Shown here one piece after another: positions 21,941-24,555 of a stretch of 43,526 nt of DNA. Source of the DNA: Betaproteobacteria bacterium (GTDB lineage: Bacteria; Pseudomonadota; Gammaproteobacteria; Burkholderiales; SG8-41); the NCBI GenBank assembly GCA_947476215.1, contig CANJQI010000020.1:1-43526 (forward strand). The letters run 5' to 3'. The translations under genes and the position numbers were made by a program. The notes beneath the pieces are model-generated. The model made no database searches. It saw only the letters and a program-made list of their open reading frames with translations, and was not told the origin of the DNA. Numbering within the stretch: position 1 is the first letter of the stretch; each line of letters begins with the position of its first letter.

Positions 21941-22774
21941 CTATCGGGTCGCGTTCCACGTCCCGCCGCTGCCGCCTTTGATGGTGCCGTCCATGCTGTT
22001 GCCGCTGACTTTGCCGCTGTAAACGGCGCCGTCCGCACTGAAGCTGATCTGGTCACCGAGCAGCCGTCCGCTGGAAATGGAAATATTCTTGCTTCCGCTC
22101 TTGAGTGTGCCTGTAACCATTTGAAAGGATTGGGAAAGTGTCAGTTCGCTCTGGCCGAGCTTCCATGTGCCTTCGACTTTGGCCGGCACTATCCACAGCA
22201 GCGCCTTGCACCAGTATCCGCTGCAACCTTGCTTCTCATCCACGATCGCGGATTCGTCGGTGACCCACTCGCCCATCGTAAATGTATTCGAAACGATACG
22301 CGTGCCGGGCTTGAGGTCGAGAATTTTCGGACGCAGTTTGAGATTGATGTCCGGCAGCAGGAACATGGTGATGACGGTGGCTTTCGAAAGATCCATTTCG
22401 AACAGGTCCGCTTTCATGAAGTCCGCTTTGCCGGAAACGCCGGCTTTCGCGGCATTGGTTTTCGACAACGCAACCATATCCGGGTTGTATTCAACGCCGG
22501 TCGCACGTATACCGCGTTTGGCGGCTGTTATGACGGTGCGGCCGTCGCCCGAACCCAAATCCATCACATAGTCGCTGGTCGTGACTTTCGCCATATCGAG
22601 CATCTTGTCGACCAGCGCCTGCGGTGTCGGCACCCAAACCACGTCTTTGCCGGGTTGACCGGAATACGGTTCGAACGGCTTTTGCGCCGGTTGGGCCTGC
22701 GCAACGGAACACAGCATGGACAGGAACAGCAGCGTCAATAACGAACGCAGGCGCGGACCGGGGGATGGATGCAT
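21941..22774 (-). CDS. exported class I methyltransferase-like protein, copy 1
   Basis: 277 aa from ATG 22774 (GGAG eight bases upstream; a longer frame to 22819 is less likely). A signal peptide (RLRSLLTLLFLSMLCSVAQA, about 8-27) precedes a Rossmann methyltransferase domain: VPTPQALVDKMLDMA, motif I MDLGSGDGRT (71-80), motif II acidic E95 in GVEYNPDM, KADLFEMDLS, then LRPKILDLKPGTRIVS. From about 195 a beta-rich C-terminal domain follows, ending in GKVSGNSMDGTIKGGSGG. Unique to this copy is the pair C184 and C189 (GCSGYWC), a possible disulfide. Methyl transfer outside the cytoplasm would be unusual because SAM is not known to be available there. First described here as last of three tandem copies. 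Confidence 0.85.
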   Translation of the reverse strand: MHPSPGPRLRSLLTLLFLSMLCSVAQAQPAQKPFEPYSGQPGKDVVWVPTPQALVDKMLDMAKVTTSDYVMDLGSGDGRTVITAAKRGIRATGVEYNPDMVALSKTNAAKAGVSGKADFMKADLFEMDLSKATVITMFLLPDINLKLRPKILDLKPGTRIVSNTFTMGEWVTDESAIVDEKQGCSGYWCKALLWIVPAKVEGTWKLGQSELTLSQSFQMVTGTLKSGSKNISISSGRLLGDQISFSADGAVYSGKVSGNSMDGTIKGGSGGTWNATR

Positions 22775-22831
22775 GGTGTTTCTCCGGAGGGGTTTAAGTT
22801 TTTTAGTGTTGCTTGTCATCGAACGATAAAT

Positions 22832-23665
22832 TTACTTCGCCGGTGCGGCGGCGGGTCTCACGGCACGCGTTGCGTTCCAGCTACCGCCGCTGCCGCCTTT
22901 GACTGTACCTTCCATGTTATTGCCGCGGATGGTGCCGCTATACTCCGCGCCGCCGGCGGTGAAACTGATCTGATCGCCGCGCAGCTTGCCGTTCTGAACG
23001 TTCACCGTATTGCCGCCGGTTCTGAGCGAGCCGGCGATCATCTGAAAGATTTGCTTAAGATTCAGCTCGCCCTGCGGCATTTGCCATACACCTTCGACCT
23101 TCGCCGGGACGATCCACAGATAGGCAGTGCGGTTGTCAAACGAGTCGGTCTGGTCGGCCATCCACTCCTCCATCGTAAACGCGTGCGAAACGATGCGGGT
23201 GCCGGGCTTGAGGTCCAGAATTTTCGGGCGCAGCTTGACGTTGAGTTGCGGCAGCAAATACATGGTGATGACGGTGGCTTCGGAAAAATCGCTTTCGAAG
23301 ATATCCGCTTTCATGAACGCTGCTTTGGCCGAAACGCCGGCCTTGGTCGCGTTGGCCTTGGACAATTCGACCATGTCCGGGTTGTATTCGATGCCGGTCG
23401 CGCGGGCGCCGCGTTTCGCGGCCGTGATCACCGTGCGGCCGTCACCCGAGCCCAGGTCGATGATATAGTCACTGGATGTAACCTTGGCCATGTCCAGCAT
23501 CTTGTCGACCAGACCCTGCGGGGTCGGCACCCAGATTACATCCTTGCCCTCCTGGCCGACTTGCGGTTCATACGGTTTCTGTGCTGTCTGCGCCAACACG
23601 CCGCAGGCGGAGAAAAACAGCAAAAGCGTCAGTACCGATACATGCAAATGGCGGGCAGGCTTCAT
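22832..23665 (-). CDS. exported class I methyltransferase-like protein, copy 2
   Basis: 277 aa; ATG 23665 has AGGAGA seven bases upstream. Signal peptide about 1-25 (VSVLTLLLFFSACGVLAQ), then KPYEPQVGQEGKDVIWVPTP, motif I IDLGSGDGRT, GIEYNPDMVELS, KADIFESDFS, LRPKILDLKPGTRIVS. The region of the cysteine pair of copy 1 is here DSFDNRTAYLWIVPAKV, without cysteines. The beta-rich tail ends with EGTVKGGSGGSWNATRAVRP plus an alanine/proline-rich extension. Spacing to the neighbours is 57 and 47 bases, so all three are probably one transcript. It is the closest relative of copy 1 in the window. Confidence 0.85.
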   Translation of the reverse strand: MKPARHLHVSVLTLLLFFSACGVLAQTAQKPYEPQVGQEGKDVIWVPTPQGLVDKMLDMAKVTSSDYIIDLGSGDGRTVITAAKRGARATGIEYNPDMVELSKANATKAGVSAKAAFMKADIFESDFSEATVITMYLLPQLNVKLRPKILDLKPGTRIVSHAFTMEEWMADQTDSFDNRTAYLWIVPAKVEGVWQMPQGELNLKQIFQMIAGSLRTGGNTVNVQNGKLRGDQISFTAGGAEYSGTIRGNNMEGTVKGGSGGSWNATRAVRPAAAPAK

Positions 23666-23712
23666 GTCGGTTCTCCTGGTACGGCATTGAAGGGAAACGT
23701 TTTCAGTTGCTA

Positions 23713-24555
23713 CTACTTCTGTGCATTGGATGCCGGATCGCTGGCGCGCGAGGCACTCCACGGACCCGAAGCGCTGCCTTTAACCGTGCCTTCAACGCGA
23801 TTGCCGCTTACTCGTCCCGTGTAGTCCGCGCCGCCGGCGCTGAAACTCAGCTGATCGCCGCGCAACTGGCCGTTTCGGATGGCCTGGGTGCCGTCCGCGG
23901 TCTTGAGAGCGCCTTCCACAAACTGATAGCTCTGGGTGAGGGTGAGCTCGCCTTGAGTCAGTTGCCATACACCCGCAACCTTGGCCGGCACCAACCACAG
24001 ATAGGCAGTCTTGCCTTCGATGGTTTCGGTGCGATCCGGTTTCCAGTCGGCCATGTCGAACGCATGCGAAACCACGCGCGTGCCGGGCTTGAGATCGAGT
24101 ATTTTGGGACGCAGTTTGAGATTAAGCGAGGACAACAGGTACATGGTTACCAGCGTGGCTTCGTTGAAATCCGTTTCGAACAGGTCAGCCTTGATGAACT
24201 TGACCTTGTCCGACACGCCCGCGGCTTTCGCGGTGCGATTGCTGTATTCCACAAGATCGGGATTGTATTCAATGCCCATGCCGCGTGCGCCGCGCCGTGC
24301 CGCGGTGATTACCGTGCGGCCATCGCCTGAACCCAGATCAATCACGAAGTCCTTGGCGGTAACTTGTCCCAGATCGAGCATCTTGTTGACGACCTCCTGC
24401 GGCGTTGCCAGCCAGATGACATCCTTGCCTGCCTGGAACGGCGTCGGCTCATAGGGTTTCGGTGCGGGTTGCGGCTGGGCAAAAACGAGCGGTGCACACA
24501 GCAGTGCCGGGAGCGCGAGCGCATAGCGGAACGTTCGATGAAAACGAATAGTCAT
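23713..24555 (-). CDS. exported class I methyltransferase-like protein, copy 3
   Basis: 280 aa; ATG 24555 with GGAGAG upstream. Signal peptide about 1-26 (YALALPALLCAPLVFAQ), then KPYEPTPFQAGKDVIWLATP, motif I IDLGSGDGRT, GIEYNPDLVEYSNR, KADLFETDFN, LRPKILDLKPGTRVVS, KTAYLWLVPAKV (no cysteines), and the C-terminal beta-rich domain GGADYTGRVSGNRVEGTVKG. It is the most divergent and the promoter-proximal copy. The 105-base gap to the CoA-transferase gene upstream probably holds the promoter, although no consensus pair is obvious. Function unknown; SAM binding is predicted from fold only. Confidence 0.85.
   Translation of the reverse strand: MTIRFHRTFRYALALPALLCAPLVFAQPQPAPKPYEPTPFQAGKDVIWLATPQEVVNKMLDLGQVTAKDFVIDLGSGDGRTVITAARRGARGMGIEYNPDLVEYSNRTAKAAGVSDKVKFIKADLFETDFNEATLVTMYLLSSLNLKLRPKILDLKPGTRVVSHAFDMADWKPDRTETIEGKTAYLWLVPAKVAGVWQLTQGELTLTQSYQFVEGALKTADGTQAIRNGQLRGDQLSFSAGGADYTGRVSGNRVEGTVKGSASGPWSASRASDPASNAQK

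Follow-up and report, generated by a model that had tools for sequence, protein, structure and literature searches.

Three tandem, putatively exported methyltransferases of the aKMT/FAM173 type in a betaproteobacterium and a candidate partner permease

Chemistry that depends on S-adenosyl-L-methionine (SAM) is usually regarded as cytosolic. The three tandem genes described here, at positions 21941-24555 of a 43,526-nucleotide stretch of a Betaproteobacteria genome (assembly GCA_947476215.1, contig CANJQI010000020.1; the whole stretch is hereafter the window), encode putative methyltransferases that appear to be made for export. Among described enzymes, the aKMT/aKMT4 protein of S. islandicus (5fa8, 5fad, 5jwj) shares with them the methyltransferase domain over nearly its full length, motif I and the LKPGTRVVSH segment. 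However, the solved aKMT chains have 161-172 residues and align from residue 7, and they carry neither the leader nor the C-terminal domain of the window proteins.

Related to aKMT are the mitochondrial lysine methyltransferases FAM173B (ATPSCKMT) and FAM173A (ANTKMT), according to the cited parts of the reports (PMC5828452, PMC9006661), and the FAM173 enzymes methylate membrane proteins in mitochondria (PMC9006661). The likeness of the window proteins to FAM173 goes by published description, via aKMT, and they differ from it in their predicted export from bacteria. Mitochondria also possess SLC25A26, which swaps SAM for S-adenosyl-L-homocysteine (SAH) across the mitochondrial membrane and so supplies methyltransferases (PMC9239748). 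The nearest precedents that we found for methylation of the bacterial envelope are the Rickettsia OmpB lysine methyltransferases and the Anaplasma enzyme OMT, which methylate envelope proteins; the cited part of that report makes no mention of a transporter partner, and it describes the Anaplasma enzyme as having no signal peptide, unlike the window proteins (PMC4636158). Searches of the open-licence literature for exported or periplasmic methyltransferases and for SAM carriers showed, among the papers listed, no exported aKMT-type enzyme and no SAM-carrying permease of this kind, and because only such papers were covered this absence of precedent is weak evidence.

Three window proteins and their family

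The open reading frames of all three copies are intact and lie on the minus strand, and they are transcribed in the order copy 3, copy 2, copy 1. Their features are as follows, with the signal peptides and cuts predicted by eye.

23713..24555, minus strand: copy 3, 280 amino acids, first transcribed; predicted signal peptide, putative aKMT/FAM173-type methyltransferase domain and C-terminal domain
24478..24555, minus strand: predicted signal peptide of copy 3, 26 amino acids, cut after VFA
23980..24420, minus strand: methyltransferase domain of copy 3, residues ~46-192, with motif I DLGSGDGR and post-I GIEYNPD
23740..23973, minus strand: C-terminal domain, residue 195 onward in copy 3; copy 3 matches no Pfam family here, and nothing in the PDB matches significantly
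22832..23665, minus strand: copy 2, 277 amino acids, architecture as copy 3; start at 23665 behind AGGAG, listed reading frame extending to 23761
23591..23665, minus strand: predicted signal peptide of copy 2, 25 amino acids, cut after VLA
21941..22774, minus strand: copy 1, 277 amino acids, architecture as copy 3; start at 22774 behind CGGAG, listed reading frame extending to 22819
22694..22774, minus strand: predicted signal peptide of copy 1, 27 amino acids, cut after AQA
22208..22225, minus strand: C184 and C189, the only cysteines in mature copy 1, at the site of C-x3-C / C-x4-C in relatives

A Shine-Dalgarno sequence of the GGAG type lies upstream of each likely start (22774, 23665 and 24555 for copies 1, 2 and 3). 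The leaders of the three proteins (MHPSPGPRLRSLLTLLFLSMLCSVAQA, MKPARHLHVSVLTLLLFFSACGVLA, MTIRFHRTFRYALALPALLCAPLVFA) have 25-27 residues; the methyltransferase domain that follows spans about 150 residues and the C-terminal domain about 80. Copy 3 is 59% identical to copy 2 and 55% identical to copy 1. The original prediction of three tandem methyltransferase-like genes with signal peptides is therefore borne out, with reading frames, leaders and both motifs present in all three copies. It had also named a start codon after the hydrophobic segment as an observation that would speak against it, and all candidate starts precede that segment. Copy 2 is possibly a lipoprotein, since a lipobox-like FSAC lies within its signal peptide.

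The class I SAM-binding fold claimed earlier stands far above chance. DLGSGDGRTVI and G[IV]EYNPD occur in all three copies, and copy 3 matched 5bxy (E 4.5e-47), 5fa8 (E 1.9e-30) and other aKMT chains down to 1.8e-29 in the PDB. A family profile of 86 rows matched the same solved relatives at E 9.8e-56 to 2.5e-47 (5fa8 at 1.2e-48). The top three matches of both queries, far ahead of the rest, were 5bxy, deposited as an RNA methyltransferase, and 5fa8 and 5jwj, which like 5fad are the archaeal protein-lysine methyltransferase aKMT; the similarity spans the whole methyltransferase domain. The 86-row alignment shows no variation at D73, G75, G77, D78 and G79 of motif I or at E96, the post-I acidic residue, and by fixed-pattern count motif I is kept in 144 and the post-I segment in 140 of 147 relatives. 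By chain position G77 of copy 3 aligns with position 38 of 5fa8, and the aKMT4 variant G38R is reported, in the cited part of the source, as a dead enzyme (PMC4639711). Against this assignment it must be said that the best family match of all three proteins, NCBIfam NF041081 (archaeal protein-lysine N-methyltransferase), reaches 104.8-109.6 bits with a cut-off of 200, for which reason we describe them as of aKMT/FAM173 type without assigning them to that equivalog. On the basis of these matches the window proteins very probably have a seven-beta-strand SAM fold of this type.

Export was assessed by eye and with our own rule for hydropathy, charge and A-x-A, which is lenient and takes the most favourable start. 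The 147 relatives are what remained, after removal of one duplicate, of 148 reading frames kept out of 151 (score >150 and motif found); they were drawn from at most 107 loci and include the window copies (L111), and these loci were picked by similarity to exported copies, which weakens the tallies as evidence for export. The rule was passed by 141 of the 147. Of the six that failed, four have a leader lacking net positive charge, one has a lipoprotein-like leader, and for one no start was found. With a cruder protein-level rule as a control, 65/74 family reading frames passed versus 140/480 flanking ones. In the genome of the window all 15 matches obtained with copy 3 at E 0.001 have an N-terminal export signal by eye (the profile gave 19 matches, and signals were read for the 15); the match on contig C65 has a twin-arginine-like signal and is the sole one of the 15 without the C-terminal domain. 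Moreover, eight single-domain relatives carry Sec-, Tat- or lipoprotein-like signals, again by eye.

The cysteines point in the same direction. The mature part holds none in 58 relatives, two in 88 and one in a single protein, and 87 of the 88 pairs are spaced by 4 or 5 residues (81 C-x3-C, 6 C-x4-C). Odd counts are found in 1/147 relatives versus 46% of 480 control reading frames, which were counted whole with their leaders (54% even). The mature window copies 1, 2 and 3 have 2, 0 and 0 cysteines, and such absent or paired cysteines fit folding outside the cytoplasm. Taken together, leaders and cysteines make it almost certain, as far as sequence can tell, that the window proteins are exported.

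Every one of the 41 genomes covered by the search for relatives gave a match at E 0.001, the number within the genus of the window being 4-19. At E 1e-40 the family occurs in 41/200 sampled genomes of the order and 7/299 of the phylum. The titles of the named loci (the best 80 of 581) include Proteobacteria of several classes and metagenome-assembled genomes called Acidobacteria, Bacteroidales, Gemmatimonadetes and others. A 53-row tree places the first gene of the window triplet beside its counterparts, the first genes in sister genomes, in a group of 9 rows (support 99/99). The second gene belongs to a group of 7 rows (98/96) made up of second and third genes. The third lies in a larger group of 25 rows (97/98), composed mostly of second and third genes along with dispersed paralogues and the first genes from sets that are incomplete or rearranged. 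By this tree the triplet is old, with some exchange between second and third position. The ratio of nonsynonymous to synonymous substitution rates (dN/dS) of orthologue pairs is 0.07-0.34, which means purifying selection. This, along with the grouping of the copies with those of sister genomes, upholds the earlier suggestion of a triplication under selection.

Pairing with an APC permease

The original prediction had proposed a survey of neighbours in other genomes, and this survey found an L-type APC permease adjoining the family genes. Its representative in the genome of the window, P0003, lies on contig C35 (locus L024) at the end of the second family cluster of that genome. P0003 passed the cut-off of Pfam AA_permease_2 (189.6 bits, cut-off 27) and scored 200.6 bits against the L-type transporter model TIGR00911, whose cut-off of 701.8 is not reached, so that "L-type" denotes its nearest kin and not membership. 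The nearest solved natural proteins, matched over nearly the full length, are 6f2g (E 1.5e-52), which we take to be BasC, and y+LAT1 8xxi (E 1.3e-49).

Among the 200 genomes sampled in the order, with the family counted at E 1e-40 and the permease at E 1e-80, both were found in 34, the family only in 7, the permease only in 1 and neither in 158 (Fisher p 2.5e-30, a value that ignores kinship). A single permease match is present in 34 of the 35 permease genomes and two in the remaining one. The permease genes adjoin a family gene on the same strand in 31 of 36 cases; of the other five, that of G415 sits at the edge of a contig and those of G411, G448, G486 and G503 are not arranged in this way. 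In the 80 named loci (1.33 Mb, 72 of them with 1.6 kb on both sides of the family gene) the permease is the commonest immediate neighbour, being present in 21: adjacent on the same strand in 19, adjacent on the other strand in one and distant in one. The pairs occur in both gene orders, and an adjacent pair is present, for example, in Azorhizobium oxalatiphilum (L091). In addition, the permease is adjacent in 10 of a further 20 regions, which were taken from match tables with neighbours unseen beforehand and are not random, and in 9 of 20 regions mainly from multi-copy genomes, one of these (L228) having it in two pieces. The adjacent permease of three named loci is only 25-28% identical to P0003, which suggests repeated pairing. 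Three of the four phylum-sample genomes with both genes are other than the genome of the window, and the genes adjoin in all three (L216, L217, L262). Functional pairing of the exported family with the permease is, on this evidence of co-occurrence and gene order, highly probable. Transmembrane segment 6 (TM6) of the permease carries the motif GGW[NS][DE], with the acidic residue in 27/31 aligned rows; this column is not acidic in the L-type (SLC7-like) relatives shown, and it gives a hint of a cationic substrate.

Several observations weigh against the pairing or against the explanation built on it below. Of the 41 family-bearing genomes of the order, 7 have no permease at the cut-off, and their best family match is between 6.8e-70 and 1.5e-51; in favour of the pairing, the permease is present in every one of the 32 genomes whose family match falls below 1e-80, a cut chosen post hoc. 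The permease gene is absent from the examined stretch of the window (18-29 kb) around the three genes. The acidic residue of TM6 is absent from the three divergent partner permeases. The coincidence is also weaker in the phylum sample, where the permease was found in 10/299 and the family in 7/299 genomes (both in 4, family only in 3, permease only in 6); the versions carried by the six permease-only genomes share 41-44% identity with P0003.

A possible extracytoplasmic methylation system and its rivals

The best explanation as a whole, which we prefer tentatively and would not yet call probable, may be an extracytoplasmic methylation system in which the permease handles the SAM/SAH traffic. 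Direct evidence in the sequence covers the export signals, a cysteine pattern typical of folding outside the cytoplasm, the intact SAM motifs and the genetic tie of the family to one L-type APC permease. Beyond this, the proteins would use SAM to methylate amines in the periplasm, the likeliest acceptors being lysines of envelope or periplasmic proteins. Lysine methylation by the window proteins is suggested by their relatives, and lysine side chains are the likely acceptor because the cytosolic relatives modify them inside cells. The partner permease would exchange SAM (out) for SAH (in), and for the window copies this would have to be the permease of contig C35, at another place in the genome. 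Its proposed analogue would be SLC25A26, although the two families are unrelated by name, the bacterial partner being of the APC type. For the parts of this explanation our judgement differs: SAM-dependent methylation outside the membrane is evenly balanced, and exchange of SAM for SAH by the permease, suggested by the gene pairing, is doubtful.

The original prediction started from the premise of a periplasm without SAM. We know of no SAM in the periplasm either, which counts against the proposed system, but the pairing with a transporter puts that premise in question. The association of a duplicated, exported SAM-fold family with a single transporter opens the idea of periplasmic SAM to testing. 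It makes the partner permease a candidate bacterial carrier of SAM and SAH, and the arrangement resembles that of mitochondria, in which a SAM carrier and the FAM173 enzymes occupy the same compartment. If the idea is true, SAM would be a periplasmic cofactor; if SAM plays no part, a system of exported enzyme and permease still calls for an explanation.

The main rival, which we find rather unlikely, is a route for uptake: an amine or a compound resembling an amino acid would be modified by the exported enzyme, with SAM from outside or with another donor, and the permease would import the product. The nearness of P0003 to L-type amino-acid permeases agrees with it. Moreover, among the permease-only loci whose neighbours were read (L256, L257, L258, L261), two (L257, L258) have a gene beside the permease that resembles a TonB-dependent receptor by eye, and the permease of G503 (L252), which is not beside a family gene, adjoins another. 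These receptor-like genes point to uptake rather than SAM export and are to be counted against the methylation system. Nevertheless, no receptor group is found among the neighbours common to at least 4 of the 80 named loci. On this route polyamine-type chemistry would be suggested by the membrane spermidine-synthase-like neighbour, which is present in many clusters, but only 1/80 named loci has it versus 21/80 with the permease. In addition, the closest characterised relatives act on proteins.

Less likely still is that the exported proteins are non-catalytic binders, the fold taking up SAM, SAH or a nucleoside-like ligand and passing it to the permease with no methyl transfer. In its favour, we know of no donor outside the membrane, many paralogues share a single permease, and a function in binding would account for tandem copies if these differ in specificity. 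The selection data do not discriminate between an enzyme and such a binder. The family signature, however, that is motif I and the following segments, is kept as in aKMT. The use of another cofactor or a pseudo-methyltransferase, both offered by the original prediction, is possible yet not favoured, motif I and the post-I acidic residue being invariant in the 86 rows.

The proteins might also act in the cytoplasm before export, as the original prediction had considered, or stay on the inner face of the membrane by an uncleaved leader. FAM173B would be the example, since it has an N-terminal membrane segment that is apparently unprocessed in the cited part of its description (PMC9006661). One relative, L195 (L195:1441-2226), has the C-terminal domain and no signal found, in a genome of the same class that is 100% complete, and 4/8 single-domain relatives have one cysteine, located in motif I (DLGCGDGR); both speak against export and extracytoplasmic folding as a rule for the whole family. 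The lone cysteine means that cysteine pairing is a trait of the two-domain type. In that type the even cysteine number (146/147 relatives) disfavours cytoplasmic action, as do the three kinds of export signal in different relatives, namely ends like A-x-A cleavage sites, lipobox-like signals and twin-arginine-like signals, and we consider either form of this rival very unlikely. A decayed or neutral exported gene family with no coherent role would fit the patchy distribution (7/299 sampled phylum genomes), but it is largely contradicted already by purifying selection, orthology across the genus and the conserved permease pairing, and can be set aside as highly improbable.

C-terminal domain and other genes of the clusters

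The original prediction could not assign the C-terminal domain, and our searches gave no family for it: a Pfam search with 46 members gave nothing significant (best E 0.034), and neither did a PDB search (best E 0.083). A galectin match of copy 1 (PF00337, E 0.019, under the cut-off) and matches to lumazine-synthase constructs (E 0.39 and worse) were taken as chance. The domain may be beta-rich, judging from its sequence pattern, and in the genome of the window it was found only behind this methyltransferase domain (14/14 matches).

The genes that surround the three copies in the window encode a flavin mononucleotide (FMN) oxidoreductase, a hydroxyacid dehydrogenase, a short-chain dehydrogenase/reductase (SDR), a coenzyme A transferase, a lactonase-like protein and a Bug-type solute-binding protein, and they gave no functional lead. 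The Bug-type gene is located at window:28026-29075. Proteins of this type are the second commonest neighbour group (16/80 named loci, within 3 kb), but they recur throughout these loci.

The second cluster of the genome (L024:8392-17806, contig C35) holds six family genes, P0002, P0001 and the permease, and similar clusters exist in sister genomes. The order is P0002, one family gene, the divergent P0001, five family genes and P0003. P0002 (L024:8392-9141) is a methyltransferase-like lipoprotein of another kind, presumably COG4798, and a lipobox was seen by eye in 9/9 P0002-like proteins. P0001 (L024:10072-11676, minus strand) is a fused membrane and spermidine-synthase-like protein, which passed NF037959 (fused MFS/spermidine synthase) with 178.6 bits at a cut-off of 40. 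In P0001 and 15 homologues the hydrophobic stretches were read as seven segments, a 41-residue stretch (155-195) being counted as two, and positive charges concentrate in the loops that follow segments 2, 4 and 6. By the positive-inside rule the C-terminal synthase-like domain would then lie outside, so that the catalytic domain may be outside the membrane, a reading by simple hydropathy that hangs on the segment count. It is conceivable, although we are as doubtful of it as of the exchange itself, that several proteobacterial classes have a dedicated extracytoplasmic SAM economy in which SAM/SAH exchange by the permease feeds exported methyltransferases, joined in some lineages by the lipoprotein methyltransferase and an outward-facing aminopropyl-transferase-like enzyme.

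Some individual loci deserve mention. The L195 gene sits between dnaE-like and accA-like genes, named by eye, and may represent a cytosolic type. At L228:5702-7026 the permease lies in two frames beside family genes, and the same genome has a second copy (G448:C152). The longest array among the loci printed is at L238:1969-12517, where eleven family genes stand in a row on one strand beside a membrane synthase-like gene.

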